A stretch of 64,000 nucleotides of DNA from a virus. The notes beneath the pieces were generated by a model. The model did no database searches. It was not told the DNA's origin and saw only the letters and a program-made list of their open reading frames with translations. Location: positions 1 to 64,000 of the IMG/VR virus record IMGVR_UViG_3300042566_000678; one strand, given 5' to 3'. A program made the position numbers and the translations under genes. Shown here piece by piece: positions 206 to 63,463 of the stretch. Position 1 is the first letter of the stretch. Each line of letters begins with the position of its first letter.

Positions 206-1390
206 TTATTTAATTAATCCTGCTAATTGTTTAAATCTATCAGAGTAAGCAGAATTTTCGCTGATGATTTGTTTTTTTACACCTGTACTCTTTTGTGGTT
301 TAGAAGCTCCTTCAGTAATTCTTTTTACAGATTCTACTTTCTTAACACTTCCACCCATCTTCATAGATTCGGCGATTGTTGAGTAAACCAATTTAACTTC
401 ACGAATTGTTCCAGTTCTATCGAATGAATCAATAACTTTAGATTTTTGTTCGTTAGTTAAGTTGTATCCTCTAAATAATTTGTTAGAATATAAAAGTTTA
501 GCGTTCAATAAGTTAATCTCATTGATTGTAGACTTCAAAGTTTTGATTACAGATATTGCTTGTCTCAATTCATTTTTCAATGATTTTGCTTCTGCTACTG
601 CTGCTTTCTCTTCTTCTTCTGCTGCTTCTTCGTCTTCTAATTCTTTGATGATAGATTCGATGTTTAATTCTTCTTCTTCACCTTCTTCTTCACCTTCTTC
701 CATTTCAGAAGCTTCTTCGTCTTCACCATAGCCTTCTAATTTAGCTATTTCTTTTCTTAATTCAGCGATTTTTTCTGCGTTAGGATTTTCTTCTTCTTCA
801 TCTTCTTCCGAAATTGATGAATCTGAATCATCTGCGTTCATGTAAGTATCAACATCATCTGCATCTTCTTCCATTTCATCATCTGTTCCTAATTCGTCTT
901 CTAATTCACGAATAATAGCTTCTAAATCTAAATCATCTTCAGATGGAGCTTCCATTTCTTCTTCGCCTTCTTCCATTTCCATTTCGTCTTCACCTTCACC
1001 TTCTTCCATTTCCATTTCTTCTTCCTCTTCTTCTGTGATTGATTTAGCGAAATCATAATCTTCAACCTCATCCTCTGGCTTACCAGAAGTTTTAGTTACG
1101 TCTGCTGCACCTAACTCATCTTCAGCTTCTGCTGAATCTAAAGTTGGTTGTGCACCACCCCCAATGTTAGAAGAACTTAATTCTTCTTCCATTTTGTCTT
1201 CTTCTTCTTCCTCATGCATTTCGTCATCAGCTTCCATATCTTCAGCTTCTGCACGTAATTTTTGAGAAAGAATTGACTTCAAACGAGGAGTAAATGCTTC
1301 CTCTAATTGAAGTTTTGCGTTTGCTAATGCAGTTTCTCTTACAGCTTTAGCATCAGCGATTGCTTCTTTTAACAATTTTGAACTTGCCAT
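206..1390 (-). CDS. 22: Prohead core scaffolding protein (T4 gp22-like)
   Basis: 394 residues, extremely rich in Glu and Asp between about residues 45 and 265. A basic, helix-prone N-terminus and a C-terminal lysine-rich helical part flank the acidic region. It sits between the prohead protease region and the capsid gene, where T4 places gp22, the assembly core that gp21 degrades before packaging. Two acidic repeats carry the same motif, EAIIRELEDE near residue 155 and ESIIKELEDE near residue 240. The (L/I)xE tripeptides throughout fit the known T4 gp21 cleavage rule. Upstream (1391-1558) is a 168-bp AT-rich gap with a short inverted repeat (ACCAA...TTGGT, 1502-1517) that may hold its promoter. 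The gp22 identity is inferred from composition and position, since such scaffolds diverge quickly. Confidence 0.75.
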   Translation of the reverse strand: MASSKLLKEAIADAKAVRETALANAKLQLEEAFTPRLKSILSQKLRAEAEDMEADDEMHEEEEEDKMEEELSSSNIGGGAQPTLDSAEAEDELGAADVTKTSGKPEDEVEDYDFAKSITEEEEEEMEMEEGEGEDEMEMEEGEEEMEAPSEDDLDLEAIIRELEDELGTDDEMEEDADDVDTYMNADDSDSSISEEDEEEENPNAEKIAELRKEIAKLEGYGEDEEASEMEEGEEEGEEEELNIESIIKELEDEEAAEEEEKAAVAEAKSLKNELRQAISVIKTLKSTINEINLLNAKLLYSNKLFRGYNLTNEQKSKVIDSFDRTGTIREVKLVYSTIAESMKMGGSVKKVESVKRITEGASKPQKSTGVKKQIISENSAYSDRFKQLAGLIK

Positions 1391-1808: not shown

Positions 1809-2171
1809 TTACTTTTGCTCTACTTTGGTGTAACGTTGATTTTTATCGTTTTGTATTCTTTTCTTTGTTGATTTTACTTTATCATATGATGGAGCACCAT
1901 TTATATATCCACCTGGTAATGATAAACCTACACCTGCTCCACCTGGAAATCCATCTTCTTTAACCATAGACTCCGAACACCCAATTGCGTTGTAGAATTT
2001 ACTATAATCAAATTTGATACCTTCATCTTTGAATTGTCTTACCATATTATCGGCAATAGATTTACGATTTTCTACATCTAATACTTGATTTAGAATATCA
2101 ATAATCCCATCTACCATTTGGTATTCGTTATTATCTAACTTTTCCTTTAATATACTTTTTAACTTTATCAT
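1809..2171 (-). CDS. Putative internal head protein with capsid-targeting peptide
   Basis: 120 residues beginning MIKLKSILKE. I chose the ATG at 2171 over an upstream TTG because four upstream neighbours start with the same peptide and the same DNA around the ATG; it then begins one base after the preceding stop. The first ten residues resemble T4 capsid-targeting sequences (about ten residues ending in (L/I)xE, cut by gp21), with predicted cleavage after LKE. The body has a helical middle (DGIIDILNQVLDVENRKSIADN) and a C-terminal GFPGGAGVGLSLPGGYINGA segment that is common in phage virion-associated proteins. The function after cleavage is unknown. Packaging in the head is an inference from the N-terminus and location. 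Confidence 0.75.
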   Translation of the reverse strand: MIKLKSILKEKLDNNEYQMVDGIIDILNQVLDVENRKSIADNMVRQFKDEGIKFDYSKFYNAIGCSESMVKEDGFPGGAGVGLSLPGGYINGAPSYDKVKSTKKRIQNDKNQRYTKVEQK

Positions 2172-2172
2172 G

Positions 2173-2760
2173 TTATTTACAGGTTTTCCAACCACCACCT
2201 TTTGATTTGTAGTTTTTTGCTGCCCAACCATTTGCATATGCAGATGGATAAACATCAAACTTTGATTTTGCTGCGGATTTAGAAGCAGACCATTTTGCTG
2301 GGTCAGTTGGGCAATTCTTTTCTAAAAATAAATCTAACTTTTCTGCCAACTCATTTTTCTTTGTAGAAACATATATAGGAGTTTTACCTTGTCCTTTACT
2401 ATCACTACCACCTCTATCTGCTGCGTTTTGTGCTGCTCTCTTTCTACGAGTTGCAGACTCCTTTTCTTTTTTACTCATTCCAGCTGCTTTTGCCGCAGGA
2501 ACACATTTAGCATATCCACTCTTTTCACCAGATGTACCACATGGTGGGTGTTTTCCATCAACCTTTTTACCTATGTTTACCCACTTTTCTTTAAACCATT
2601 TCCGTAGGTCTTCTTTTATAGGTGTATTATCAGTACCGCATTTATGACAAGTGTATGGTTTATCACCACCTTCAGCTATATCCCACATCCAATCACAGTT
2701 ATCACAAATTACTTTGTTTCCTTCTACCTTTTCGTTTAATATATCTTTTAACTTAATCAT
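2173..2760 (-). CDS. Putative internal head protein: targeting peptide, zinc ribbon, DUF5872-like domain
   Basis: 195 residues. It starts MIKLKDILNE, a likely capsid-targeting peptide with a cut after LNE. Residues about 17-45 contain CDNC...CHKC, a zinc ribbon. A central part, LRKWFKEKWVNIGKK followed by PPCGTSGEKSGYAKCVPAAK, looks like the DUF5872 family of phages and large viruses. The C-terminus has KFDVYPSAYANGWAAKNYK, a motif shared by many phage proteins of unknown role. The many Lys and Arg residues are compatible with DNA binding inside the capsid. It overlaps the preceding stop by one base. The biochemical role is unknown. Confidence 0.75.
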   Translation of the reverse strand: MIKLKDILNEKVEGNKVICDNCDWMWDIAEGGDKPYTCHKCGTDNTPIKEDLRKWFKEKWVNIGKKVDGKHPPCGTSGEKSGYAKCVPAAKAAGMSKKEKESATRRKRAAQNAADRGGSDSKGQGKTPIYVSTKKNELAEKLDLFLEKNCPTDPAKWSASKSAAKSKFDVYPSAYANGWAAKNYKSKGGGWKTCK

Positions 2761-3149
2761 TATAGTTTCTTCAATAATGTATCCATATCTATTTCAAATG
2801 AATACCCAGCACCACTATGTCTTTTATTTGCAACTACTTTTAATCCTAATTTCTTTTCTATACGAGTTTCTAATGCTGATAAAAAATCATTATCTCCCAA
2901 ACTCTTTTTAATTGTATCTACATTTGTAGAATCTTTTATTGAAGCTGGAATTAAAACAATATTGCCATCTTTTGATGATGCGTAGAACTTAACTCCGCCA
3001 GCTTTAGCAAAATCAATACTAACAGATTGTGCTTCTTCTAATACCTCTTCTTTAACTTGCGGTTTGAATGCAGTATGGTATGGGTTAGAATAAACAACTC
3101 CTTGTTCAAACTTACCATGTCCTTTCATCAAATCGGTTAGCTTTATCAT
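2760..3149 (-). CDS. Small virion-region protein with degenerate targeting peptide
   Basis: 129 residues starting MIKLTDLMKG. The start resembles its neighbours but lacks a Glu at the expected cleavage point; a later LEE (EEVLEEAQSVS, about residue 39) fits the protease rule and could be used instead. The rest is a compact alpha/beta sequence (FAKAGGVKFYASSKDGNIVL ... KKLGLKVVANKRHSG) without a family I recognise. It is co-directional with the other MIKLK genes and overlaps the next one by one base (TAATG). It may be an internal head protein, with less certainty than its neighbours. Confidence 0.65.
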   Translation of the reverse strand: MIKLTDLMKGHGKFEQGVVYSNPYHTAFKPQVKEEVLEEAQSVSIDFAKAGGVKFYASSKDGNIVLIPASIKDSTNVDTIKKSLGDNDFLSALETRIEKKLGLKVVANKRHSGAGYSFEIDMDTLLKKL

Positions 3150-3160
3150 ACTTTTATTAA

Positions 3161-3664
3161 TTAATTTACAGATTCTATTCCATTTTCATCACCTCTGCTA
3201 GCAGTTTTAATACCACCTTCAATTGAAGATAATTTATGTCTAACTTTCTTTGAACCTTTTACTCTCCCATATTCATCCGATGGTACTAATGTTGCGGTTG
3301 TATCATCCATTTCAACAACTTTATAGTATTTACCACCTTCAATTCCTTTTAATCCGGTAAAACCAATTCCTAAAATTACAGAACCAACATATAAATTAGT
3401 TGGATACTTAACCTCTTTTACATATCCTTTCTTAACATATGCGTGTCTTGCTTTAAGATAATCGGCTTTGTGTGCTTTTATATAAGCCAACATTTCACCT
3501 GTTGTATCAAATGATTTTTGACCTGAACCTTTTATGTTGTCCATCCAAAATGAATCTGAATCTCTATCGTATGAATAATCGCCAACTTTTTCACCATCCA
3601 AAGTTATTACACTTTTTTCTGCTTTCCAAGTTTCCTCGTTCAATAATTCTTTTAACTTTATCAT
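3161..3664 (-). CDS. Putative internal head protein with capsid-targeting peptide
   Basis: 167 residues, N-terminus MIKLKELLNE with predicted cut after LNE. After it come WKAEKSVITLDGEKVGDYSY, a helix with ALKADY-like spacing, and a beta-rich C-terminal half with GGKYYKVVEMDDTTATLVP that looks like a small SH3-like barrel. The start codon overlaps the upstream stop by one base. No enzyme motif is visible. The N-terminus and gene order suggest that it is packed in the prohead and trimmed by the gp21-type protease; that is inference. Confidence 0.7.
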   Translation of the reverse strand: MIKLKELLNEETWKAEKSVITLDGEKVGDYSYDRDSDSFWMDNIKGSGQKSFDTTGEMLAYIKAHKADYLKARHAYVKKGYVKEVKYPTNLYVGSVILGIGFTGLKGIEGGKYYKVVEMDDTTATLVPSDEYGRVKGSKKVRHKLSSIEGGIKTASRGDENGIESVN

Positions 3665-4461
3665 TATCCTATATAGCAGTTTAATTCGTATCCGTTTTTC
3701 ATTCCGTATACCTGAATGTGTAATTGTTGTTTTGCTGGTTTACCACCTTTGGTAAGTTCTACCGACATCTTATTAGTTTTACCTTCGGATGGTCTTTTTG
3801 GTCCCATTCCAATTTTTCTAAATGAGTCATCATCATCTACCATATACCCTCGTTTCAAAGCGTATTCTTTTGCAGTTTGTATTGCTTCGGTATATGATTT
3901 GTGATATACTTTCAAATCATTTGCTTCGGTTACGGTTTCAACTTTTTTTTTACCAGCTCTTAAATCTGCCAAATCGTCTGAACCAATATCACCATCCTTA
4001 TCCAAATCTAATTTATGTTGATTACCAACTAATTCTTCGCTACGGATACCCAATCTTTGGTTTACTTCTTCTTCACTCAATTCACTAACACCATAGTAAC
4101 GTCCTATAATGTGTCCCATATCTTCGTATAGATTTTCCATTTGTGAATGTAATGACTTTGCCTCGTTAGCTATCTTTTCGAATTGAGATGATAGTTTGTT
4201 CAACTCATTCATATTACGTTTAACAGTCACATCATCAAAGTGATTACCGGCTTCTTTAATAGCAAACTCACTAGCTGCATCTGTGATTGCACCCAATGTT
4301 TCAGCAATTTGTGCCAAATCATTCTCATTCTTTAACTTTGGTCCAAATGAACCATAAGTAGAAATGATTTCTAAAAAGTGTCTTCTTGCTTCGTTGCTTA
4401 AAGTTTGTTTAGGTGCTTTTTTATCTTCACCTTCTCCCAATAATTTCTTTAACTTTATCAT
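3664..4461 (-). CDS. Putative internal head protein with targeting peptide and EF-hand-like loop
   Basis: 265 residues from the ATG at 4461 (MIKLKKLLGE). An in-frame TTG 15 bases upstream is less likely, because 4461 reproduces the one-base gap seen between neighbouring genes. The predicted cut is after LGE. Residues about 60-125 are helical. At about residue 148 the sequence LDLDKDGDIGSDDLADL is a calcium-binding EF-hand or dockerin-type loop (D-x-D-x-D-G-x-I). The C-terminal domain begins KVYHKSYTEAIQTAKEYA and ends with a beta-rich tail. The mosaic of modules resembles other head-cargo proteins of T4-like marine phages. Function unknown. Confidence 0.72.
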   Translation of the reverse strand: MIKLKKLLGEGEDKKAPKQTLSNEARRHFLEIISTYGSFGPKLKNENDLAQIAETLGAITDAASEFAIKEAGNHFDDVTVKRNMNELNKLSSQFEKIANEAKSLHSQMENLYEDMGHIIGRYYGVSELSEEEVNQRLGIRSEELVGNQHKLDLDKDGDIGSDDLADLRAGKKKVETVTEANDLKVYHKSYTEAIQTAKEYALKRGYMVDDDDSFRKIGMGPKRPSEGKTNKMSVELTKGGKPAKQQLHIQVYGMKNGYELNCYIG

Positions 4462-4462
4462 A

Positions 4463-4687
4463 TTATTTTGCTTCAAATTGTTCTATAAGTTTGATTGCCA
4501 TATCAATGTGCTTGATAGCTTCTTTGCTATAAGGTGCAATGTTGTGTTTGACCTCTTTTAATCTATCTAATGATTTTTCACGAGTCATAGCGTGCATTGC
4601 TGCTTCTAATAAATCTCTTCGTTCTTGCTCATTGGATTTGGCTTTAATCTTATTAGAAGCCATATATTGCGTTATATTAAATGCCAT
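4463..4687 (-). CDS. Conserved small head-region protein, unknown function
   Basis: 74 residues, predicted all-helical, with a basic middle and an amphipathic C-terminal helix (KEAIKHIDMAIKLIEQFEAK). It lies between the prohead protease and the first MIKLK gene, with short gaps on both sides, so it is part of the head operon. It does not start with the MIKLK peptide, though DLLEAA near residue 27 contains an LxE triplet. T4 has small core proteins (gp67, gp68) in a comparable place, but I see no sequence proof of homology. Confidence 0.6.
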   Translation of the reverse strand: MAFNITQYMASNKIKAKSNEQERRDLLEAAMHAMTREKSLDRLKEVKHNIAPYSKEAIKHIDMAIKLIEQFEAK

Positions 4688-4694
4688 ATTTTTA

Positions 4695-5279
4695 TTAGTT
4701 TAATTCTTCTATTATTTGTCTCATTAGGTCTTGTGCTTTACACCACTTACCACACTCTTCAATTTCTCTTTGTACGCTTTCATTCATAGCCGTTGGAGAC
4801 ATAAATGCACCATGTGTAGATGGGTTAGATACAAAATCCCAACCAATTAGTTCGAAATCTTCTTGTACCATTACCGTATTCTCTCTCATAGGTTTAACTG
4901 AACCCATACCTCTACTACTAATACCCAAACGAATATTGTGTTTGAATAACTCTTTTAAGATGTTACCAGACGGAGTTGAAAGAACTTCTACTGTACCACA
5001 TAAATCTTTACCATCCCACCAAATCTCTTTGATGTTGTGTGATACGTTCTTTAAGTTGATTACAGTTGATTCTGGATGGTCTAATTCACCTAATGCTCTA
5101 CGTTCTTGTATTAGGGTTTCGTATTTCTTTGCTTCCCTCTGTAATATGTTAAGAGGATAGATACGATGATTTTGGTTAGGAGCATCTGCTCTTTGCAAAA
5201 CGCCTTTAACCAAAAACTTTCCGTTTTCATCTTCTTGTATCTTACCTTCAAAAAGGTTGTGTTCTATTAATAATGCCAT
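4695..5279 (-). CDS. 21: Prohead core protease (T4 gp21-like)
   Basis: 194 residues, close to T4 gp21 (212). The fold and active-site landmarks of the phage prohead serine protease family are visible: His68 in GELDHPES and Ser121/Ser122 in LGISSRGMGSV, separated by the expected spacing, plus RIYP near residue 40. This enzyme cuts scaffold, capsid and internal proteins after (L/I)xE in T4-like phages. It is therefore the likely processor of the MIKLKxLLxE proteins encoded just downstream. It follows the endolysin gene by three bases and belongs to the same operon. Confidence 0.9.
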   Translation of the reverse strand: MALLIEHNLFEGKIQEDENGKFLVKGVLQRADAPNQNHRIYPLNILQREAKKYETLIQERRALGELDHPESTVINLKNVSHNIKEIWWDGKDLCGTVEVLSTPSGNILKELFKHNIRLGISSRGMGSVKPMRENTVMVQEDFELIGWDFVSNPSTHGAFMSPTAMNESVQREIEECGKWCKAQDLMRQIIEELN

Positions 5280-8212: not shown

Positions 8213-10057
8213 TTATTCGATTATATTTTGCTCATCCATCATACTCTTACCTTCCATTATCACCTTTGCTCCACCCGATTTCAAAGTTTTTTTGATTGAT
8301 TTGATGAAATTTTCATTACTTCTACTCAATTTCCTCAACTCCTTATCACCTAACGCATCTCTACCATACATATGGTCATCTTTACCCATACGATTTACAT
8401 GACGAGGTCTACCTGCTGCTTTTACTGATTCGTTTGGTGTTTGTCCTAACTTTGATTTTAAATCTTGTATAGTCTTTTCAACATCCAATGGTTCACCTGT
8501 TGGGAACTCATCTTCTTCTGGTTGGTCTTCTGTTGGTTGTTCTTCACCACCCATTTCAGGTTGTCCACCCATCATTCCACCTTGCTCTTGTTGTCCTTCT
8601 GGCTTTCCAGTTGTTTCTAAATTAGTTAATACAAATAGATTTTTAGCATCTTTAATTAAACCTTCTTTCATATCTTCAACATCATCATCGCTGAAATTGA
8701 ATACATTTTTGTAAACCCAATCTTTAGAAATCAATTTTAAATCGCCCATCGTTCTAGCCAAATCTACTTTAGATGACCATAATTCAATTTTAGATTGCTC
8801 ATAAATTGTGTATGGGATAGTCAATGATAATTCAAAATCAGTTAATTGTTCATCCTCAATACCTTGTGAGTATAAGTGAATGATTGCTATCTTTTCTAAT
8901 TCAGATGTTACAATTCTTTGAACTCTTTCAATAGTTTTGGCAAATCTCATATCCATAGCTGCTAATGTAGCTTTAGAATTACCATCCTCCAAAAATCCTA
9001 AATGTTGTTTTGGTATTTTTAATGCCGCAAACATTTTATCTTTTAAGTAGTTAATATCATCAATAGGAGCATACTCTAAACCATCTAAATTAGAGATTTC
9101 AGTACCACTATCACTACCACGAACTGGCAGATAGAAATCTTCCATCAAGTTTTGGATATTATACTTTAAGTTGTACTCACCAGTATCTGCGTTGATAATA
9201 GGTGCTTTCTTTGATTTGTTGATAATACGTTGAATGTAGTTATCAATCTCATTTGTAGGAATATTACCCACATCAATTTTGTAGATACGTTTTTGTGGTG
9301 CTCTACTGATACGGTGTATAATCATCGCATCTTCCATCAAAGTAATTTGCTTCCACAATCTTCTTGCACTCTCTAACATTGATTTACCATAAGGTAAAAA
9401 GTTAGTATCAGTCAACATACGAAAGTGAGCAATCTCATAGTTTTCGTATTCTGTTTTTTGTCCAGCTACATAAAGTGATTTAGTTGCTAATGGAGTGTGT
9501 ACAAACTTAACTGATTGCCAATTGTTTGGGTCATATCCTTCAACACGAGTAATTTCATAAACTGAAAGTGGTTGTATTCCTACAACACCCAACTCTTCTG
9601 CAATTTCAATATGTAAAAAATGGTCACCATATTTAACCAAACTTCTTACCCAAGGGAATAAGTTGAACTCAACGTTTATAATATCATAGAATAAGTTTTC
9701 TAATATAGATTTTATTTGTTCGTTGTTTGTTCTAACTTCTAATACTTTTCCGTACTCGTTTTTAGATGTAGATTCTTCTGCGTAAATATCTAATGCGGCA
9801 CCAATAATTGGGTCAGCATCCATAGCATCATAATCTCTAAAAAGTTCTTGACGGATTTGTTGGTATGCAAGATAATTCTCATAGGTATTATTCATAGCCG
9901 ATGAGTGTAATCTCATATATCTATCACGTAGATTAGTTGCAATTGATTGAGTTTCATCGTAATCAATTACCTTTAACTTATTCCCCTGCTTTCTTACGAT
10001 TACCGATGTAGAGAATAGTTTGTTTAACCTACCAAAAAATGATTTATCTGTTGCCAT
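8213..10057 (-). CDS. 20: Portal vertex protein (T4 gp20-like)
   Basis: 614 residues (T4 gp20 is 524). The family landmarks are present: a RYMRLHSSA-type opening, YDAMDADPIIGAALDIYAEE near residue 78, the wing region LVKYGDHFLHIEI, and the clip/stem stretch EYAPIDDINYLKDKMFAALK with PKQHLGFLED. An acidic, Gly/Gln/Glu-rich tail near residues 490-540 extends the usual length and probably is disordered. Twelve copies form the ring at the packaging vertex that binds terminase and nucleates scaffold assembly. It is placed between the terminase side and the head operon, as in T4. Confidence 0.92.
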   Translation of the reverse strand: MATDKSFFGRLNKLFSTSVIVRKQGNKLKVIDYDETQSIATNLRDRYMRLHSSAMNNTYENYLAYQQIRQELFRDYDAMDADPIIGAALDIYAEESTSKNEYGKVLEVRTNNEQIKSILENLFYDIINVEFNLFPWVRSLVKYGDHFLHIEIAEELGVVGIQPLSVYEITRVEGYDPNNWQSVKFVHTPLATKSLYVAGQKTEYENYEIAHFRMLTDTNFLPYGKSMLESARRLWKQITLMEDAMIIHRISRAPQKRIYKIDVGNIPTNEIDNYIQRIINKSKKAPIINADTGEYNLKYNIQNLMEDFYLPVRGSDSGTEISNLDGLEYAPIDDINYLKDKMFAALKIPKQHLGFLEDGNSKATLAAMDMRFAKTIERVQRIVTSELEKIAIIHLYSQGIEDEQLTDFELSLTIPYTIYEQSKIELWSSKVDLARTMGDLKLISKDWVYKNVFNFSDDDVEDMKEGLIKDAKNLFVLTNLETTGKPEGQQEQGGMMGGQPEMGGEEQPTEDQPEEDEFPTGEPLDVEKTIQDLKSKLGQTPNESVKAAGRPRHVNRMGKDDHMYGRDALGDKELRKLSRSNENFIKSIKKTLKSGGAKVIMEGKSMMDEQNIIE

Positions 10058-10102: not shown

Positions 10103-10609
10103 TTACCACTTTCTGCAAGACCAATATCTTGCTTTGTGTCTTGGACCGGGTTGGTCACAATTGTGTCTTGCTCTAAAAGACCTTCTTGCATCAGGATTAG
10201 ATTTTCTTATTCTCATTGTTTTTTCACCTTTAGATGCTGCTGATGTACCACCATGTCCAAAGTTTACTTTAACAACATTACCTGCTGGATTTTTTACATA
10301 TACTTTAAACTTTTTAACATCACCTCTCATTGGTTTACCCAATTTAACATCTCTACCTTGATATTCTGCTTCAAATACACAATTACAATTGGCTTCATCT
10401 AATGTATTTTTATATGCTTTTAAGAAAGCAATAAAATCATCAATATCTTCCTCTTCTACATCCAACTCATCGTAATCATCATCCTCAATAGCTTCGTTTG
10501 AATTTGGTACACAATTAGGAACTTCCTTTCCGTTCTTCATTTTCATACCAATTTGCTTATATCCATCCCAACAAGGAGAGTTTTCTTTAAGTAAATCCCG
10601 TAGTTTCAT
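10103..10609 (-). CDS. Putative internal head protein with MKLRDLLKE targeting peptide
   Basis: 168 residues from the ATG at 10609; the frame extends to a TTG upstream, but the ATG gives the conserved start. The N-terminus MKLRDLLKE matches the (L/I)xE-ending peptides of the cluster at 1.8-4.5 kb. A Cys-containing segment (SPCWDGYKQIGMKMKNGKEV, then PNCVPN) follows, then an acidic stretch, and a basic C-terminal domain with KVNFGHGG, SFRARHNCDQPGP and KARYWSCRKW. The last part is strongly reminiscent of a conserved protein of T4-like marine phages. It lies between terminase and portal and has its own proposed late promoter 26 bases upstream. Confidence 0.72.
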   Translation of the reverse strand: MKLRDLLKENSPCWDGYKQIGMKMKNGKEVPNCVPNSNEAIEDDDYDELDVEEEDIDDFIAFLKAYKNTLDEANCNCVFEAEYQGRDVKLGKPMRGDVKKFKVYVKNPAGNVVKVNFGHGGTSAASKGEKTMRIRKSNPDARRSFRARHNCDQPGPRHKARYWSCRKW

Positions 10610-10662: not shown

Positions 10663-12258
10663 CTATCGTAACAACCATCTTAAATCTTCAAACTCATCAC
10701 CATGCCCAGTTTGCATTTTGTATGGGTCATCACCAAACATACCAGGTGTGTATAAACTATCATGCGATGTTTGAACAAACCCCTCAATAGAACGTCTTGT
10801 CAAATCAATTCCTTCTTGTCTTAAACGTAATGCGGTATCTCTAATCCACAATCCCATACCCAATGCCATCACCAAGTCATCATTGTAACCTCTTGCCGCT
10901 TCCGCTCTACCATTATTCCAAATAAATGTAAAGAACTCATCAATTGTTCTCTTACTATGAATAATAACACTCATATCTCTCATATAAGTGTCTATCTTTG
11001 ATATTACCAACGGGCGGGTTTTAGATGATATACTAAAGCCAGGAACCATTTGCTTTTCATCTCTGTAAAACTTATTAGTAAATTGAGTATCAATATCTAC
11101 ATATTTAATATCTCTGTTAGACCAGAATAAATTTTTGTAGTTTCTATCTAAACATTGTTGGATAGTTGTCCAACCAATTGATGCATTATCAATGATTAGT
11201 AAAGCATCGTTATATTCAGTTGCTAAATTGATTAGGAAATTACCAAAATCTTTTGGTTCAATTTTACCTCTATATTCAGCAACTTGCTCACAACTCTCTG
11301 CTTCTATAACATGGGCAGTAGAATAATCTTCCCCATCTCCCCTTGCAACGTCAGCCGTAACTATATAACTCTTTGTATAATTTACATCTTCCCAAACCCA
11401 TAAGTTATTATCAAACCCACGCTTATACATTGGGTCTTTAACATATGCTTCTATGTACTTTGTTAAAATTTCTGGTTGAATTACCGTTGCTCCAGAACTG
11501 ATAAAGTCACAATCACATTCCTGTGCTGCTCCCTTTGGTCCTAATTGCTTTTCCTGCTCCTCTCTCCAACTATTATCTCTTTCAGGGTGAACCGTCCAAT
11601 GGAGTTTAATTGGATGAAATAAATTCTCACCATTTTCTGCTTTTACCCAAGTTTGGTGAAACCAATTACCAATACCATTTGGTGTAGATAATGCTATACA
11701 CGCACCACCCGTTGATAGAGTAGATTGTGCCGATGTCCAAATCTCTTCAATGTAATCAATAAAGGCTGCCTCATCAAATACCAATAGTGATAAGGCTTCC
11801 GAACGTCCTGCATCTGGTTTGGATGAAATTGCTTTGATTTGAGAACCATTCTTTAATCTTAAAGATAGTTTGTTATCTTCAGACTCTTGTACCCTTAACC
11901 ATACTGGTAAGAATTGGTTCATTACTCTCACCTTTAATACCAAGTTTTTTGCAACTTCTTGCTTTGTTGCAATAACCAACACGTTATAATCTTCGTTGAA
12001 TATCATACACCATAGTGCATAACCCGCAACTAATGTAGATATACCTAATTGGCGTGATTTTAGAACAACATTAAAACGATTATCTTTAAAATCGTTTAAT
12101 ACTCCTTCTTGAAAATCATATAAATCGAATGGTATTTTCCCACGAACTGGGTGTTGGATTTTACAAAACTTACGCATGAAATAGACGGGGTCTTTTGCAC
12201 AACGTTTGTATTGTTCTTTTACTGCATCTTGCAGAGATTTTGTTTGATTTACGGCCAT
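10663..12258 (-). CDS. 17: Terminase large subunit (T4 gp17-like)
   Basis: 531 residues. The N-terminal ATPase has an adenine-binding YDFQ motif near residue 47, a Walker A variant SRQLGIST near residue 69, Walker B LLVFDEAAFID near residue 157, and the coupling motif LSTPNG. The C-terminal RNase-H-like nuclease shows ADVARGDGEDYS and LLIIDNASIG with the expected acidic residues. The enzyme docks on the portal, pumps DNA into the prohead and cuts the concatemer. No clear small-terminase gene is visible next to it; the two upstream genes do not look like gp16. Confidence 0.93.
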   Translation of the reverse strand: MAVNQTKSLQDAVKEQYKRCAKDPVYFMRKFCKIQHPVRGKIPFDLYDFQEGVLNDFKDNRFNVVLKSRQLGISTLVAGYALWCMIFNEDYNVLVIATKQEVAKNLVLKVRVMNQFLPVWLRVQESEDNKLSLRLKNGSQIKAISSKPDAGRSEALSLLVFDEAAFIDYIEEIWTSAQSTLSTGGACIALSTPNGIGNWFHQTWVKAENGENLFHPIKLHWTVHPERDNSWREEQEKQLGPKGAAQECDCDFISSGATVIQPEILTKYIEAYVKDPMYKRGFDNNLWVWEDVNYTKSYIVTADVARGDGEDYSTAHVIEAESCEQVAEYRGKIEPKDFGNFLINLATEYNDALLIIDNASIGWTTIQQCLDRNYKNLFWSNRDIKYVDIDTQFTNKFYRDEKQMVPGFSISSKTRPLVISKIDTYMRDMSVIIHSKRTIDEFFTFIWNNGRAEAARGYNDDLVMALGMGLWIRDTALRLRQEGIDLTRRSIEGFVQTSHDSLYTPGMFGDDPYKMQTGHGDEFEDLRWLLR

Positions 12259-13595: not shown

Positions 13596-16500
13596 TTAGT
13601 AAAATATTCCTAACAATTGATTTAATGAAGCAAATGCTCCAGTCATCTTAAATACATTACCTTTGTATGTGAATATAATTCCTTCATTTGGAACTATCTT
13701 TTCAAATCCACCAATTGAATTTAATCTTTCTAATTCCAATTTCATTTTTTCAATTTGAGCGGGTGTACCTTCTGCTTTTATTTTATCTATCGTAGAGTCT
13801 AATCTTTTACGGATTGCTTGTAGTGCTTCATTTGGAGATGCAGTCAATACTGATTGCATAAATTGTAAAACTTCTGCGCCTACACCTAAAAATATTTCTT
13901 CAAATTTCATTAGGTTTTCCTTTGCAATCTTATCCTTACTTTGTTTTTCAATACCATCAGCCCAAGCTCTAGCTTTTTCATCACCAATTAAATTGATTCG
14001 GAATGATTTATCACCAAACGCCCATCTTTTTGTTAAACCTTCGATTTCCAATGATGTTAAACCTTTAGAACCTTTTTGTATATAAGTTTTCCACCACGCT
14101 TGATGGTAATCTGCTACTCCAGCATTATCTGGCAAAGTAAACTCACCTTGTAATTTAGATATTTTTGCAAGGAATTTACTTTTCTGTGAGCTTAAATTTT
14201 CACTCTTTGGTAATTTAACAATTGGTGGGCCTTGTATTGTATATTTAGATTGGATATGTGCATTTACTTGCTTTATCATACCGGCCAATATACTTTCAGC
14301 TCCTTTTATTTGTCCAATAGCGTTTCCGGCTTCGTTGTATTCTACTGCGTTGTGAAATACTAACAATGCTTGCCCATAAGGAATAACATTTACAGATGTT
14401 GGATAAATAACCTCTAAATTCATAAATGCTTTACCATTCATAAAGATTTTATCTTTTTGTGCTTGCGATAATCCTCTAATAGCACTTTCCAAATCTTTCA
14501 TAGCAAAGTTGTATGCATCACTCAATGCTCCTCTACCAGCAAATTTTGAAGCCATACCAGAAGCATCCAATGCATTTTCCCCAGCATTTGCCAAATGCCC
14601 TTTGTTTCTTGCTGCAATTAATCTACCATTTTTCCAACTGATTGCTAATGCCTGTCCATCCGTTTTTTCTCTAACTACACCCAACTCACCATCCAATGCT
14701 TTACTAACAATAGTTTTTAAATCTTTAAATGTTAGGTTTATATCAGTATCAAATGGATGATTCATATGTCCATAAGCACCACCTTCCATTAACAAACTTT
14801 CGTTTACAGATTTTGTTTTCTTTTTGTATGGTTCGTATCCACGATTTTGAGTATCTTTTGTATCAGTTTGATGGCCTGGTTGCTTTTCTCTATTATCATC
14901 ATCAAAATCTATCGTATCAAACTCCGGTTCATATCCGTAATCCGGTGTATATGATGAACTCTTATGGTGTTTATTAAAGTTAGCATCTGCTGTACCAACT
15001 GGTTCGTGATTTTTACTAGTAATTGCTTCACCAAACGCACTATGTTTAACTTTATACCAACCGCCGCCGGGTGTTGTAAATAATCTTGCTGGTATTCTAA
15101 ATGTAGAACCTATTGGTAATTTACTGAAATACTTACTATCTATGTGAACCACTTTTGTCACAAACTCTCTAGTCTTGTTATCGGCACCAATCAATTCAAC
15201 CTCAATCTTTACAGGTTGTCCACCTATTTTGATTGTTCCACCAAATATGCCCTTTGTTATTTCATTTAATTTATCTTCTACTTGATAAACAGGTGTTGAT
15301 GATTTGAAATCATCTTTTCTCATTATAGTTTTAGCAATCAATTTGTTTGCTTGAACCATAAATGGAATGTTAATACCAGTTCGTTTATCCTTTACTACAA
15401 ATTCATTGTATTGTTTGATAAACTCTAAAAACTTTTTCTTATTCTTTGCTAATCTTTTAAAGAAACCAGTTAGTTCTGCTGGTGATATTTCTTTACCATT
15501 ACGAGGGTCATTCAATCTTTGGAAAAAATGGTCTGTTTCTTTTCCTAATACAACATCTTCAGGTGATAATTGAGAGTCAGCGTATTTTTCTACCTTATCC
15601 ATATCAACCTTTGCCATTTCTTTTAATTCATTTGGGTTTGTAGTTTCCCAATCTGTTTCACTAACCTTGCCACTTTCCTTGTCTTTATTATATCCATCAA
15701 CCGCTTTTGCCCAAACCGCTGGTGGTATAGCTCCATTCATTATATTATCGGCAAGTTGTAATGTAAAGTATTCAATGTAAGTTTCATCTGTAATGTTTTC
15801 TGCACCGGCATTTAATACTGCCTTACCAATACCCATAGTTGCAACTTCCACTGCCATATGTTCCGCAAGGTGTAAACCTACACCTGCCAACAATTTAGCA
15901 GGTCCTACTGCAAGTGAAGCAACACCCCCCGTCAATAACATACTACCAACAGTCAAACCTACTGTTTTAGCAATACCAATCATTGCTTTCTTTTGTTTTT
16001 CATCTGGTTTTTTACCAGAGAAAACTGCTTTAAATCCTTCCCCTGCTTCTTTTATTTCGTGCCCTAAATGTTTTGCTTCTCTAACTACACCCTTTACAAT
16101 ACCTTTTGCTTTATCAGCCATCCACTGTCCAACACTACGTCTTTCTTCAGATTGAGGCTTATGTGCTCCTTTGAAAAAATCTTTTTCCTTTTCACTCCAA
16201 TTTTTTATTTTTTGGCCCACTGCTCTTAATACCGCTTTTGGATTTGATACTGCCGTTTTAGCAACCTTTGTTGCGGATGCTTGCGAATCTTTTTCTCCAC
16301 TTTTTGCAACTGATGGTGATTGTACTTTTTGTTTAACCTTTTGTAATTTTTGCTTATCCGAGCCACCGGCTTTTGCAACCAACATCATTGCAGCTTTGTA
16401 AGCAGGATGGTCTCGTTTATAGTTCAATGCGGAACTTACTTTAATATCTTCACCCGTATCTGGGTTTTTTACTAACTGATTTAGGATTTGTGGAGAATAC

Positions 16501-17615
16501 CCACTACCCTTTACGGATGCTTCTTTTACAATGCTCTCACCATAACCAGTATATAAACCCAAATTAACTTGGTTTACTTTATCACTCTTTGGTGATGATT
16601 GTCCCTTTTCTATGTTACCCGGTACTTGTCTTTGTTTCATCAAAGCATGAGTATGTAATACACGCATTGCTTCTTGGTATGCAAATTCTTTTCTATCCAA
16701 TTTAATAGCATCTTTGATACGGTATTTCTTACCAGTTGCCTGGTCAGCAATTTCCATATTCATTATGTTTTCCCAACCTACCGCATCTGGTTCATAATCA
16801 ATATCACCTTCAATGGTCATTAACTTATCGTAGTATTTAGGGTCTTCGAATATATGGTCTCTTGCAATCTCTGCTGCTACTCTCATATCGGTAGTGTGTT
16901 CCATTTCCACATTCACACCCTTCTTAAACTCTTTCTTTATAGTATCTAAATCTACTTTGTGTTTATCTGCTATTTGAGCCAATGTCATACCTTTAGATAA
17001 TCCACCCGGTATAAACTCCTTTGCTTCGTTTAATTCTTTATTTAACATTTGGAATATATCTTTATTGTATTTACCAAAAAACTTTTGGAATTGCTTTTCC
17101 TTTTCGTCTGCTGATAAATTACTACGAAACATATTTCTTACATCGGTTGCACCAAATGAGTTTGATGGAGTTTTAGAATATACATAACCTCTTGTCATAT
17201 AACCTTCCATATCCTTATCATTTTTGTAAGGTTTAAAGTATTGTCCACCCAATCTCATTGCATCCTTTTCACCCAATGCTATAATAAGAGCAGTAGTGGT
17301 TGAATCAAAATCACGTAAGATTTCTACTGGTTGGTATGGGGATTTTACTTGAATGAACTTTGATGGTGGGATACCAAACACTTTAACTGCAATATCACGT
17401 TTCTCATTAAAAGAAAGTGGTGATTTATTTGAATCTTGCACATTTGATGTTGCAATATAAACATTCTTTGCTCCAAATACCGAACAAAGGTGTTTGTATG
17501 TTTTATAGTGACCAGCGTGAAATGGTTGAAATCTTCCACCATATACTACCATCTTTTCTTTTACTGCTTCGGTTAGCAAGAAAGTTTCCACTAAATAGTT
17601 TGATAATTCATTCAT
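13596..17615 (-). CDS. Giant multidomain protein: NMNAT-like domain, helical middle, ligase-like nucleotidyltransferase
   Basis: 1339 residues. Residues 1-16 (MNELSNYLVETFLLTE) may be a targeting peptide ending in an LxE site. Residues about 20-200 form a cytidylyl/nicotinamide-mononucleotide adenylyltransferase fold, with GRFQPFHAGHYKTY and a GATDVRNMF motif (ISSTxxR-type). At about 230-275, MEHTTDMRVAAEIARDHIFE looks like the DUF5661 family. A hydrophobic helical region lies near 545-600. The C-terminal 380 residues (DUF6267-like; AYGHMNHPFD entry) carry nucleotidyltransferase motifs: EKTDGQ near 982, AARNKGHL, MNLEVIYP near 1067, EGIIFTYKG near 1308 and FKMTG. Internal LNE (about 195) and LME (about 950) sites could allow cutting by the prohead protease. 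It may be a packaged enzyme acting early in the host. Substrates are unknown. Confidence 0.75.
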   Translation of the reverse strand: MNELSNYLVETFLLTEAVKEKMVVYGGRFQPFHAGHYKTYKHLCSVFGAKNVYIATSNVQDSNKSPLSFNEKRDIAVKVFGIPPSKFIQVKSPYQPVEILRDFDSTTTALIIALGEKDAMRLGGQYFKPYKNDKDMEGYMTRGYVYSKTPSNSFGATDVRNMFRSNLSADEKEKQFQKFFGKYNKDIFQMLNKELNEAKEFIPGGLSKGMTLAQIADKHKVDLDTIKKEFKKGVNVEMEHTTDMRVAAEIARDHIFEDPKYYDKLMTIEGDIDYEPDAVGWENIMNMEIADQATGKKYRIKDAIKLDRKEFAYQEAMRVLHTHALMKQRQVPGNIEKGQSSPKSDKVNQVNLGLYTGYGESIVKEASVKGSGYSPQILNQLVKNPDTGEDIKVSSALNYKRDHPAYKAAMMLVAKAGGSDKQKLQKVKQKVQSPSVAKSGEKDSQASATKVAKTAVSNPKAVLRAVGQKIKNWSEKEKDFFKGAHKPQSEERRSVGQWMADKAKGIVKGVVREAKHLGHEIKEAGEGFKAVFSGKKPDEKQKKAMIGIAKTVGLTVGSMLLTGGVASLAVGPAKLLAGVGLHLAEHMAVEVATMGIGKAVLNAGAENITDETYIEYFTLQLADNIMNGAIPPAVWAKAVDGYNKDKESGKVSETDWETTNPNELKEMAKVDMDKVEKYADSQLSPEDVVLGKETDHFFQRLNDPRNGKEISPAELTGFFKRLAKNKKKFLEFIKQYNEFVVKDKRTGINIPFMVQANKLIAKTIMRKDDFKSSTPVYQVEDKLNEITKGIFGGTIKIGGQPVKIEVELIGADNKTREFVTKVVHIDSKYFSKLPIGSTFRIPARLFTTPGGGWYKVKHSAFGEAITSKNHEPVGTADANFNKHHKSSSYTPDYGYEPEFDTIDFDDDNREKQPGHQTDTKDTQNRGYEPYKKKTKSVNESLLMEGGAYGHMNHPFDTDINLTFKDLKTIVSKALDGELGVVREKTDGQALAISWKNGRLIAARNKGHLANAGENALDASGMASKFAGRGALSDAYNFAMKDLESAIRGLSQAQKDKIFMNGKAFMNLEVIYPTSVNVIPYGQALLVFHNAVEYNEAGNAIGQIKGAESILAGMIKQVNAHIQSKYTIQGPPIVKLPKSENLSSQKSKFLAKISKLQGEFTLPDNAGVADYHQAWWKTYIQKGSKGLTSLEIEGLTKRWAFGDKSFRINLIGDEKARAWADGIEKQSKDKIAKENLMKFEEIFLGVGAEVLQFMQSVLTASPNEALQAIRKRLDSTIDKIKAEGTPAQIEKMKLELERLNSIGGFEKIVPNEGIIFTYKGNVFKMTGAFASLNQLLGIFY

Positions 17616-39744: not shown

Positions 39745-40173
39745 TTAAACCCTTATATTTATTGAGTCTCTTGAATTATTTCCAGTAAATGGTAATCTAT
39801 AATTTAATTGAACTTGTATTGAATTATTATCTCTTGAATTATTATCGGAATATACGGATACATTTTCTACCACAACAAACGGTAACCACCTTGCAATCGC
39901 AGTTTCTATTTCCGTTTGTATATACAAAAATACACCCGCCCCATCATCTATTTGTTCAAAAAGTGCTTGCCTTAAATTACAGCCAAATTCAGGTTGCATT
40001 AATCGTTCTCCTCTATTGGTTAGTATTAAATTTCTTAAATCCGATTTTATTTGTTCTTTAGTTGTATAGTTTACGGCAAAATATCCATTATTTCCTTTTG
40101 TAAAGCAATCGGATACACCCACACTTTTATCTTGGGTATCAATAATCGGTTTATTTTGTATAATGTATGCCAT
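39745..40173 (-). CDS. 25: Baseplate wedge protein gp25-like
   Basis: 142 residues (T4 gp25 is 132). The family pattern is clear: VNYTTKEQIKSDLRNLILTN, then GERLMQPEFGCNLRQALFE (the GERxMxPxFG signature), a long helix, and a terminal beta strand pair. gp25 nucleates the baseplate wedge together with gp6 and gp53 and connects to the sheath. It overlaps the upstream stop by one base and precedes gp6 directly. Confidence 0.95.
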   Translation of the reverse strand: MAYIIQNKPIIDTQDKSVGVSDCFTKGNNGYFAVNYTTKEQIKSDLRNLILTNRGERLMQPEFGCNLRQALFEQIDDGAGVFLYIQTEIETAIARWLPFVVVENVSVYSDNNSRDNNSIQVQLNYRLPFTGNNSRDSINIRV

Positions 40174-40604
40174 TATTTCTTAAACTTTTTAACTAATTGT
40201 GAGTAATCTCTTGTCATTGCTTTCATCAACACATCTACACCCTCTGGGTTTTTATGTGCCATCATTCTTGCTTGCTCTAATACTGATGGACCACCTGCCG
40301 AAGCACCATATTGGTCTGCCATATTTGATTCCTCACCGAATGAGTTATCTCCGTATCCTAACATATCAGGTGTAATTCTTGGAGTATGTGGATTTGCACT
40401 TCTTTTATCAAATCTCATTTCACCCCAGCTACCATCTGTTTTAGATACTGCTTGGTAATTTTCTTTTATCTGTGGTTTAGATGGTGCTTCTAGTTCTTCA
40501 TTTAACACATCTCTTACCGCTTTGCGGATTTCTTCTTTAAGAGTTTTTTTCATATCTTCTCTTAAAACTTTTACTAAACCTTTAATTAGTTCCGTTTGAT
40601 TCAT
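40173..40604 (-). CDS. Baseplate-operon small protein, unknown function
   Basis: 143 residues. A helical, highly charged N-terminus (KGLVKVLREDMKKTLKEEIRK) is followed by a Gly/Ser/Asn-rich middle with RITPDMLGYGDNSFGEES and a short C-terminal helix. The N-terminal half contains DVLNEE, an LNE triplet of the prohead-protease type, but its location among baseplate genes makes cleavage doubtful. It is the first gene of the unit reading into gp25-gp6, with a proposed promoter 21 bases upstream. Confidence 0.58.
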   Translation of the reverse strand: MNQTELIKGLVKVLREDMKKTLKEEIRKAVRDVLNEELEAPSKPQIKENYQAVSKTDGSWGEMRFDKRSANPHTPRITPDMLGYGDNSFGEESNMADQYGASAGGPSVLEQARMMAHKNPEGVDVLMKAMTRDYSQLVKKFKK

Positions 40605-61190: not shown

Positions 61191-61550
61191 TTAGTAATTT
61201 ATTTTATAACGAGGATGGGGTACTACAAATTGTTCTATAATATCACCGATACGAAGCATGAAATCACCAGCTGGTTTTCTCAACCAATTACGAGTAACCC
61301 AATGTTCGTATATGATATAGGAGTTTTTATTTAAGAATTGGAGTTTATAGGTCTTATCACCAAGCATCTCTTCATCATATCCTTTTCTATGTAATCTTAT
61401 TTTTAAAAATTGTTTACCTTTATCCTTATCTAAATATATGGAATAATAATCTTCTACTAAATCACTAGCATCAATTATTTCCCAACCATTAAAATCAGCG
61501 TTCTCACTAATTTCAGCCAATCTATCCATAAAGTTTTGTATGGTTAGCAT
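61191..61550 (-). CDS. MLTIxN-family small protein
   Basis: 119 residues starting MLTIQNF, a start shared with five other genes to its right. The body has a Trp/Tyr-rich alpha/beta pattern (WEIIDASDLVEDYYSIYLDK) and a C-terminal GDFMLRIGDIIEQFVVP helix, as in its paralogues. It overlaps the upstream gene by one base. Function unknown. Confidence 0.65.
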   Translation of the reverse strand: MLTIQNFMDRLAEISENADFNGWEIIDASDLVEDYYSIYLDKDKGKQFLKIRLHRKGYDEEMLGDKTYKLQFLNKNSYIIYEHWVTRNWLRKPAGDFMLRIGDIIEQFVVPHPRYKINY

Positions 61551-61813
61551 TATAGTAATTGGATTCCTTTTAATAACTCCGTAACTCCTTCTTCATTCAA
61601 ATATCCATGCACATCACCTTCGGCAACTGCATTATCATAATGTAATTCACCATCCGTATCCAACACTGCCAACTCATACAAACCATCCTTACCTCCGTAT
61701 GAATATTTATGACGTATCACACTTGCACCAAATCCGTTCTCAAACATAGTGCGAGAGTATATACCGCTCCCATCGGGTAACTCCTTAAACTCTAAATCTT
61801 TAAATTCTTTCAT
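61550..61813 (-). CDS. Small protein inside the MLTIxN array, different family
   Basis: 87 residues, MKEFKDLEFKELPDGSGIYS; it lacks the MLTI start. It has a Gly/Tyr-rich beta sequence (VIRHKYSYGGKDGLYELAVL) and an acidic end. It is overlapped by the 41-residue membrane peptide gene upstream (ATGA) and by the next gene (TAATG), so it is tightly embedded. No family recognised. Confidence 0.6.
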   Translation of the reverse strand: MKEFKDLEFKELPDGSGIYSRTMFENGFGASVIRHKYSYGGKDGLYELAVLDTDGELHYDNAVAEGDVHGYLNEEGVTELLKGIQLL

Positions 61814-61935
61814 AATGTGTGTTTGTTGTTTTTAATTCTAAATATAATTTCTCTAATCAGCCAGCCGGGAAATACAATCATCCATATCAATACGATAGAT
61901 GATAGTAATAGTAAATTGTTAAAAAAATGTTTCAT
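61810..61935 (-). CDS. 41-residue single-pass membrane peptide
   Basis: MKHFFNNLLLLSSIVLIWMI begins a hydrophobic helix that continues to FPGW, and a basic tail follows (REIIFRIKNNKHTL). The stop overlaps the next ATG as ATGA, which supports a real coupled gene. A membrane role is clear; the function is not. Confidence 0.6.
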   Translation of the reverse strand: MKHFFNNLLLLSSIVLIWMIVFPGWLIREIIFRIKNNKHTL

Positions 61936-61960
61936 AGTCGGTTTACGATTTTTTGATAGT

Positions 61961-62302
61961 TTAGTTATTCTGTAATTGGTAATCTAATGTATCTACTACG
62001 GATTGGATAAACGAATCTCTATCCTTTAATCCATTGGCACTTATCCCACCACTATCAAACTTCTTTTGATTTAAATAAATTATATACCTATATTGGTTCT
62101 TATAATCCTTATCAAACTCCCTACCAATAAGTATCTTACCTATGTTATTGCCTCCCAACTCAAATCCAATTGAATAGTATTCAGGTTCTAAAATGGTCAA
62201 ATCGGCATCATCGTATAAATGGACACCTTCGCTTACAAGATTAATCATCCACCCATTACAACGTATCCCTTCTAATGACCTAAAGTTTTTAATTGTTAGC
62301 AT
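61961..62302 (-). CDS. MLTIxN-family small protein
   Basis: 113 residues, MLTIKNFRSLEGIRCNGWMI. It shares the start, size and layout of the family: an N-terminal leader, a Trp, a Tyr-rich strand set (EPEYYSIGFELGG), an RYIIYLNQKKF strand and a terminal helix (FIQSVVDTLDYQLQNN). It begins one base after the preceding gene ends. Function unknown. Confidence 0.65.
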   Translation of the reverse strand: MLTIKNFRSLEGIRCNGWMINLVSEGVHLYDDADLTILEPEYYSIGFELGGNNIGKILIGREFDKDYKNQYRYIIYLNQKKFDSGGISANGLKDRDSFIQSVVDTLDYQLQNN

Positions 62303-62303
62303 G

Positions 62304-62627
62304 TTATGTATGTTTATTAACTTGTTTATTAACTATTTTGCATAGAAATTCAATCATCATATTCATATCTTTAATGTAATCGGCATCTACACAAAATCCG
62401 ATTTTTTTATTTTCGTAATAAAAGAAGTATCTCCATTCACCATTACCCAATGATTCTAATCTTCTACTCAAATGAAATTCTTTTGTATCAATAATAGGTG
62501 AATATGCAGGATTCTTTAAATGTATTGCATATGTATCCGCTTTCTCTATGCAAAATTCTACTCCCCACCCTCCGGTAAAATCTAAAAACCTTCCTTCTAA
62601 TTTAGTGTAGTTTTGTATTGTTAGCAT
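62304..62627 (-). CDS. MLTIxN-family small protein
   Basis: 107 residues, MLTIQNYTKLEGRFLDFTGG. Same family plan: WGVEFCIEKADTYAIHLKNP, WRYFFYYENKKIG, terminal helix MNMMIEFLCKIVNKQVN. It sits three bases after the T5orf172-like gene and is a divergent paralogue of its neighbours. Confidence 0.65.
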   Translation of the reverse strand: MLTIQNYTKLEGRFLDFTGGWGVEFCIEKADTYAIHLKNPAYSPIIDTKEFHLSRRLESLGNGEWRYFFYYENKKIGFCVDADYIKDMNMMIEFLCKIVNKQVNKHT

Positions 62628-62630
62628 ATC

Positions 62631-63107
62631 TTATTTTTTAATAACAAACCACTCCGTACTACCCCAATTACCACTATACCTATTATGGTATCTATTTCCA
62701 TCACGCCTCATTTCATCAAAATACCTAAACATTTTATTTTTGCTCAAAATCATTTTTTTAGTCCAACCATTAAAAATATCATTACCATATACTCGTTTAA
62801 GTAGTTTAGTAGTATCATCAAACTTTTTTGGAAATGGGAACTCATCATTAACTACATACCTATTCTTAAATGAATACCCACATATACCTTTTATGGACAA
62901 AACACATTTTTCTTCTTCTATTAGCATATCCGTAATAGATGCGTTTTTATCAAATAACTTAAAACTGACTATCTCCAAATTTTTGTAGTTGGGAAATTGC
63001 TTTAATCTTTTGTAAACGTTATAAGAATACCCAATTTTACATAGTTCGTATTTAGGAAACATTGAACCAAACTTTTTATCTCTAATATAATAAACACCAG
63101 TACTCAT
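62631..63107 (-). CDS. GIY-YIG/T5orf172-like protein
   Basis: 158 residues. The N-terminal STGVYYIRDKKFG and ELCKIGYSYNVYKRLKQFPN correspond to the GIY-YIG-type core of T5orf172/MUG113 proteins (xVYYI...KIGxSxxVxKRL), with a Glu in the helix LIEEEKCVLS. A basic, aromatic C-terminus follows. Such proteins may nick DNA or be inactive relatives. It interrupts the MLTIxN array and may be a recent insertion (inference). Confidence 0.7.
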   Translation of the reverse strand: MSTGVYYIRDKKFGSMFPKYELCKIGYSYNVYKRLKQFPNYKNLEIVSFKLFDKNASITDMLIEEEKCVLSIKGICGYSFKNRYVVNDEFPFPKKFDDTTKLLKRVYGNDIFNGWTKKMILSKNKMFRYFDEMRRDGNRYHNRYSGNWGSTEWFVIKK

Positions 63108-63129
63108 ATCTTATTGTAGTTTTCTATGG

Positions 63130-63462
63130 TTAGCATAATTTTGGTAAAAGTCTAGATGAAATCCATTCTAATAAATGAATAGGGTCTTTTAAGTATTGAC
63201 AATGAATCCTATATCTTCTATTTGTTAATGATAGGCAATCTATTTGGTACTCAAATCCATTATCCATTAGCTGTCTCCATACCCATATATACTCAACCTT
63301 TTTTATGTTATATACTCTATTACCTTCATCTGGCATCAACGAAAGTTTATAGAACTCTGGTTGCTCATCTATGGATGCAACTATCCATTTGGTTATTCCA
63401 CCCGGTGAAAACGATTGGGTTTCCATACCCCTTATCTTATCGTAGTTTTTTATGGTTAGCAT
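63130..63462 (-). CDS. MLTIxN-family small protein
   Basis: 110 residues, MLTIKNYDKIRGMETQSFSP. Family traits: KWIVASIDEQPEFYKLSL, a VWRQLMDNGFEYQIDCLSLT segment, and a terminal helix (PIHLLEWISSRLLPKL). It starts one base after the gene to its right ends. Function unknown. Confidence 0.65.
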   Translation of the reverse strand: MLTIKNYDKIRGMETQSFSPGGITKWIVASIDEQPEFYKLSLMPDEGNRVYNIKKVEYIWVWRQLMDNGFEYQIDCLSLTNRRYRIHCQYLKDPIHLLEWISSRLLPKLC

Positions 63463-63463
63463 A

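Follow-up and report, generated by a model that had tools for sequence, protein, structure and literature searches.

A row of five consecutive genes at positions 1809-4461 of the virus record IMGVR_UViG_3300042566_000678 encodes proteins that share an N-terminus of the form MIKLKxLLxE, and this peptide is very probably a capsid-targeting propeptide of the T4 type. The window analyzed is the first 64 kb of the 148,235-base record (GC 32%), which is that of a T4-like phage with aquatic bacteria as hosts. The initial annotation had read the shared peptide as a packaging tag removed by a gp21-type protease, and our analysis supported this reading: the register of the residues, the linkage to the protease, swapping of the tag between bodies, pairs of tagged and untagged homologues, internal junctions and the virion proteomes of relatives agreed with one another.

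All five starts were found on the minus strand, and the bodies behind them were unrelated, as the initial annotation had claimed, with no mutual similarity among the five (blastp E > 1). The common motif held in four of them. Cargo 1 (1809-2171, 120 amino acids) starts with MIKLKSILKE followed by KLDNNEYQMV, and all 10 of its 10 relatives were tagged. Cargo 2 (2173-2760) starts with MIKLKDILNE followed by KVEGNKVICDNC and consists of zinc-ribbon, DUF5872 and DVYPSAYANGWAAK modules; the match to DUF5872 (E 1.4e-8) agrees with one of the body types that had been proposed for the array. Cargo 4 (3161-3664; MIKLKELLNE, then ETWKAEK) has two modules, and cargo 5 (3664-4461; MIKLKKLLGE, then GEDKK) has a helical body and a C-terminal module. 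The motif failed in cargo 3 (2760-3149; MIKLTDLMKG, body KFEQGVVYSNPYHTAF), which has glycine in place of glutamate at position 10, as do its relatives. The sixth start placed at 10609 was also present and belongs to cargo 6 (10103-10609, minus strand), which begins with MKLRDLLKE and then NSPCWDGYKQIG. A 1339-amino acid NMN-adenylyltransferase (NMNAT)-like protein (13596-17615, minus strand; CTP_transf_like, E 1.1e-4) starts with MNELSNYLVE. Scanning the rest of the record, outside the window, added a HAD-like protein (101449-101979; MIKLKDLLVE) and a 2H phosphoesterase (139891-140421; MKLRKILKE).

The first ten residues of the T4 internal protein IPIII suffice for packaging; residues 4 and 7 serve targeting, residues 8 and 10 serve processing, and with Asp at position 10 the protein is still targeted but no longer cut (PMC9026906). 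The corresponding register, M-x-x-H-x-x-H-H-x-E (H, hydrophobic), was exact in four of the five array tags; the fifth has G10, and the tag at 10609 has its glutamate at position 9. The NMNAT-like start matched the register as well. Over 38 T4 genes (95.5-128.5 kb) the register matched only gp24 (MAKINELLRE) and alt (MELITELFDE), whose products are both processed by gp21 (PMC9026906). M1, L4 and E10 were invariant in 35 homologues of cargo 5. From the T4 residue-10 data, MIKLTDLMKG is therefore predicted to be packaged and not cut at that point.

Chance does not account for the shared N-terminus. At least 120 stretches of viral contigs matched a degenerate DNA pattern for MIKLK[DE][LF][LF][NK]E, whereas two permuted controls of equal or nearly equal codon degeneracy, one with the same codons reordered and the other with MIKLK kept and LLxE rearranged, each gave 0 matches in those contigs. 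All 81 of the 81 matches inspected lay at or near the start of an open reading frame (ORF), with a median of 4 and a maximum of 44 open codons upstream. Prokaryote genomes (257 Gb) yielded six matches, five of them chance-like and inside ordinary bacterial DNA; the sixth was a phage-like contig (L364, 1596-3671) with three consecutive tagged genes, including an ART-PolyVal-like gene and a relative of the record's HAD protein. This contig sits in a Flavobacteriaceae metagenome-assembled genome bin and is likely a phage contig misplaced in a bacterial bin. The tag codons varied synonymously while the peptide was kept, and codon identity (57 of 87, 42 expected) somewhat exceeded expectation, which fits old copies of a cassette.

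The presumed tag-removing enzyme, a gp21-type prohead protease of family Peptidase_S77, is encoded at 4695-5279 on the minus strand, where the initial annotation had located it (Pfam 2e-26, PHROG 3e-48). Linkage was evaluated at 80 loci picked by the protease alone, with genes within 4.5 kb downstream counted against those upstream. Tagged genes made up 111 of 368 genes downstream of the S77 protease versus 10 of 548 upstream. Counted by family, 14 of 44 downstream and 1 of 21 upstream had a tagged majority (p 0.025), and this is the safer figure because many of the 80 loci are closely related. An S77 protease was present in 22 of 46 records fetched by the tag versus 5 of 47 records that a random 14-mer had retrieved (p 8.5e-5), fractions whose absolute values mean little because both sets are mostly fragments.

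The search of relatives for the tag on unrelated domains, which the initial annotation had proposed, distributed the tag over at least 38 body clusters, and this single-linkage count is too low, since fusions link unrelated modules into one cluster. Tagged bodies matched NUDIX (2e-19), a zeta-toxin-like kinase (7e-7), a GNAT acetyltransferase (3e-8) and ART-PolyVal (4.5e-12). Near relatives kept three to five tagged genes, with bodies and order differing, and in one conserved family adjoining the protease 65 of the 66 members carried the tag. The tagged 2H protein has homologues, one in Maribacter phage Molly and one in uncultured phage LR756508, that start without the tag, which identifies the tag as an add-on. 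A further cargo cluster was observed in record G020 (L358, 340-5818), where a tagged ART-PolyVal protein has as neighbors MHIKLSSLLPYLLLE and MISLANLARSLLTE proteins as well as a NUDIX protein starting with MIKLKDLIG. Tag-like starts were also seen around the cytidyltransferase of Methylophilales phage Melnitz (L329) and Pelagibacter phage HTVC008M (L334), namely MQGFKTFLSEA, MKKFSEIIEA and, before a P-loop kinase, MIPFILKEG.

Modules that follow the tag in one protein were also found inside other tagged proteins, and the points where they begin are here called joins. Glutamate lay within two residues of the join in 14 of 16 cases (4.7 expected at random) and [LIVMF]xE was present in 10 (1.4 expected), the effective number of joins being smaller than 16 because some share ancestry. 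Two joins are in the window: ETVTE/ANDLKVYHK in cargo 5, whose C-terminal module stands alone as a tagged protein in relatives L005 and L006, and YVKE/VKYPTNLY in cargo 4, whose second module does so in L006. Joins elsewhere read SVNE/A, SLNE/A and GMNE/A, and the module of cargo 6 is internal behind GMNE in L052 and L054. The NMNAT-like protein has a second possible cut site, FLLTE/AVKEK, and an internal SLLME followed by GGAYGHMNHPFD. Behind the latter, its C-terminal half contains an EKTDG nucleotidyltransferase-like motif; the counterpart in Microcystis phage Mel-JY01 (L003, 11243-13162) is IIAE followed by GGLGGHMNHPFD. The major capsid protein of relatives has LLDE/TTKTG in the gp23 cut region, as placed by eye beside a shared ENQ-K motif. 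These patterns suggest that several cargo genes encode polyproteins, predicted to be processed in the head.

Published virion proteomes of cyanophages allowed the register to be compared with proteins detected in particles. The register occurred in six of the 219 genes of S-CREM2, and five of these encode virion proteins detected by mass spectrometry (PMC10665884) that have no known structural role (p 2.4e-4): a SAM hydrolase, an APH-like kinase, a cytidylyltransferase and two hypothetical proteins. The sixth match was a 55-amino acid ORF. This enrichment needs outside confirmation because the register was fixed post hoc and a looser N-terminal motif ([LIV]xE, with the glutamate at positions 8-17) failed to distinguish the S-CREM2 proteins that were detected from those that were not (p 0.19-0.26). 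The virion-detected NMNAT of S-SCSM1 starts with MKSFLQFLKE followed by AAES. In S-SZBM1, examined last, the sole enzyme listed besides structural virion proteins starts with MRFRQFIIE followed by AVAA, one residue shorter, as at 10609. The NMNAT-like proteins of all three cyanophages were virion-detected and tagged. The DUF5872 module of cargo 2 also occurs in S-SCSM1 gp029, annotated as a virion protein.

In the mechanism we propose, the ten residues, with hydrophobic positions 4, 7 and 8 and E10, would bind the scaffold core during prohead assembly, so that any protein bearing the tag would be enclosed. The gp21-type protease would then cut after (L/I/V/M)xE and release the cargo, which would leave the head together with the DNA when the next cell is infected. 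The cargo genes would be cassettes of tag plus module exchanged among phages, several of them polyproteins with further cut-like sites. The presumed binding partner of the tag is a gp22-like scaffold protein of the prohead core (206-1390, minus strand), which is acidic and in relatives occupies the place of gp22, immediately ahead of gp23. The capsid gene lies beyond the end of the record, and gp23 is the next gene in near-identical relatives. The set of genes that accompanies a capsid-targeting sequence is accordingly represented by the S77 protease (E 2e-26) and, by position, the scaffold in this record, and by a gp23 homologue seen in near relatives.

Several points weigh against a targeting propeptide. 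Cargo 3 lacks E10, and about half of the tagged records have no visible S77 gene, though most of these are fragments. The exact register was settled with knowledge of the S-CREM2 N-termini. Of the three annotated register matches in S-SCSM1 only one was virion-detected, and several detected proteins had no tag. The authors of the proteomes noted possible carry-over of abundant proteins into virions; for the cyanophage virion enzymes the putative targeting peptide favors packaging over carry-over. Packaging, cleavage and injection of the proteins of this phage are predicted from sequence, and the AlphaFold models (pLDDT 34 from a single sequence and 52 from a 35-row alignment) were not good enough to search for folds.

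The tagged proteins could instead help to build the core or shell of the prohead, as structural or assembly components comparable to T4 gp67, gp68 and gp24, with a cleavable propeptide and without being injected. The propeptide of the T4 shell protein gp24 and the conservation of the tagged family adjoining the protease are in line with such a role, but most of the other array proteins occur sporadically, have been swapped and bear no relation to one another, and NUDIX, zeta-like kinase, ADP-ribosyltransferase, GNAT and 2H phosphoesterase proteins are among the tagged bodies; we consider a structural role for the set unlikely. A short amphipathic helix could have many uses, and the tag might send proteins to a membrane, a phage body in the cell or a host target, the protease linkage being incidental. 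We regard this as improbable given that the register is that of the T4 targeting sequence, gp24 and Alt, that tagged genes are linked to the protease and that register-bearing proteins were detected in virions.

Descent of the five genes from a single ancestral gene, of which only the N-terminus is still recognizable, would account for tag codons being somewhat more alike than codon usage predicts. The bodies, however, belong to different families that appear in varying combinations, and where homologues of a tagged protein lack the tag they have other starts; we rejected paralogy as very improbable. We also rejected, as hardly credible, a shared start arising from AT-rich translation initiation or codon bias and carrying no peptide signal. 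The low GC content and the AT-rich codons ATG ATA AAG TTA AAA would suit it, but the permuted-codon controls without matches, the six matches in 257 Gb of prokaryote genomes and the invariance of M1, L4 and E10 in the cargo 5 homologues speak against it.

Compared with known systems, the array resembles T4 IPI, IPII, IPIII and Alt in having about ten N-terminal residues that end in (L/I)xE with hydrophobic residues at 4, 7 and 8, unrelated bodies, an S77 protease and a variable gene set. It differs from the T4 internal proteins in the MIKLKxLLxE leader, the position of the array directly behind the protease, a lineage far from the T-evens, fused modules with internal cut-like sites, varied enzymes as cargo and a function that is so far putative. 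None of the five array bodies had a Pfam or PHROG match to a named internal head protein; the array proteins may work like the internal proteins, yet they are not members of the IPI, IPII or IPIII families. The closest sequence match to the tag in the T4 region examined was the gp21-cleaved propeptide of gp24, which is a shell protein and not cargo. The Dar system of phage P1 likewise targets an anti-restriction protein through its N-terminus into a head that has a prohead protease, but the signal of DarB is longer than 9 and at most 30 residues (the N-terminal 30 target to the capsid) and serves one large cargo set (PMC9024508). The jumbo phages SPN3US and phiKZ package many ejection proteins, several of which are cut by the prohead protease (PMC7411985, PMC10052503). 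The N-termini of cyanophage virion enzymes (NMNAT-like, SAM hydrolase and APH kinase) fit the tag register; their F-type tag, MKxFxxFLTE, and MIKLKxLLxE have different residues, and the cyanophage papers examined propose no targeting signal.

The minus-strand order of the head genes is TerL, cargo 6, portal, several small genes, the S77 protease, a 74-amino acid protein, the five tagged genes, an 80-amino acid protein and the scaffold. The gp17-like terminase large subunit TerL (10663-12258) shares 57% identity with its counterpart in Flavobacterium phage immuto, and the gp20-like portal protein (8213-10057) was assigned by its position after TerL, as in immuto. The 74-amino acid ORF between protease and array (4463-4687) is untagged. 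The 80-amino acid protein lies between array and scaffold (1559-1801), and a gene in the same protease-scaffold region of Mel-JY01 bears the annotation RpsU (ribosomal protein S21). Neither the Rfam nor the tRNA scan of the window gave a match. Two other minus-strand regions have distinctive N-termini. Five adjacent small genes at 61191-63808 (61191, 61961, 62304, 63130 and 63464) share an MLTI(Q/K)N start and are probably a diverged paralogue family rather than tagged genes. The protein encoded at 40173-40604 starts with MNQTELIKGLVKVLREDMKKTLKEEIRKAVRDVLNEELEAP and has a long amphipathic N-terminus, which is perhaps another type of head signal.

The strongest functional hint for anti-defense came from outside the array, from the Acb1-like 2H phosphoesterase at 139891-140421. 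It matched 2_5_RNA_ligase2 above the cut-off (1.4e-8; 35.4 bits, cut-off 27), whereas the Acb1 profile fell below its curated cut-off (1.5e-5; 25.2 bits, cut-off 27). Both HxT-type motifs of the 2H fold (PHITLLYG and HPHMTVAY) were present, and its matches in the Protein Data Bank were only to Acb1 (E 0.0085 and 0.059). The protein, if packaged, could remove the signals of the cyclic oligonucleotide-based antiphage signaling system (CBASS) at once. T4 Ip1-3, alike only in the leader, block GmrSD enzymes (PMC9026906, PMC12373910), which makes anti-defense a fair prior for the array, whose products are candidates for early host-takeover or anti-defense roles. PADLOC gave no meaningful match to the cargo proteins.

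Only for a few phages is it known which proteins travel inside the head and reach the cell along with the DNA. The principle is already known from the T-even internal proteins, and a review proposed that the capsid-targeting sequence lets T4-like phages acquire varied proteins (PMC9026906). New here are a MIKLKxLLxE class far from the T-evens, its arrangement in a row behind the protease, the shuffling of modules in proteins that have cut-like sites inside them, the variety of enzymes bearing the tag, and an explanation for cyanophage virion enzymes that links the tag to existing proteomes. The tag string was not found in the literature searched, where "capsid targeting sequence" and "cyanophage" occurred together only in one review (PMC9026906). 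Applied to sequence alone, the register serves as a predictor: it recovers T4 gp24 and Alt and flags puzzling cyanophage virion enzymes, and existing virion proteomes can therefore test it at once. Since one tag stands on dozens of different environmental-virus proteins, likely injected proteins can be selected from sequence alone, turning a pool of uncharacterized environmental genes into candidate injected effectors. These include the Acb1-like protein, which, if injected, would meet CBASS ahead of any phage gene expression. More broadly, and with somewhat less than even confidence, we propose that T4-like viruses of aquatic bacteria may share a large, fast-exchanging delivery system, in which a common propeptide is placed on any useful enzyme or domain, polyprotein modules are freed in the head at internal protease sites and the virion is pre-armed with, among others, cyclic-nucleotide phosphoesterases and NAD-synthesizing and ADP-ribosylating enzymes.

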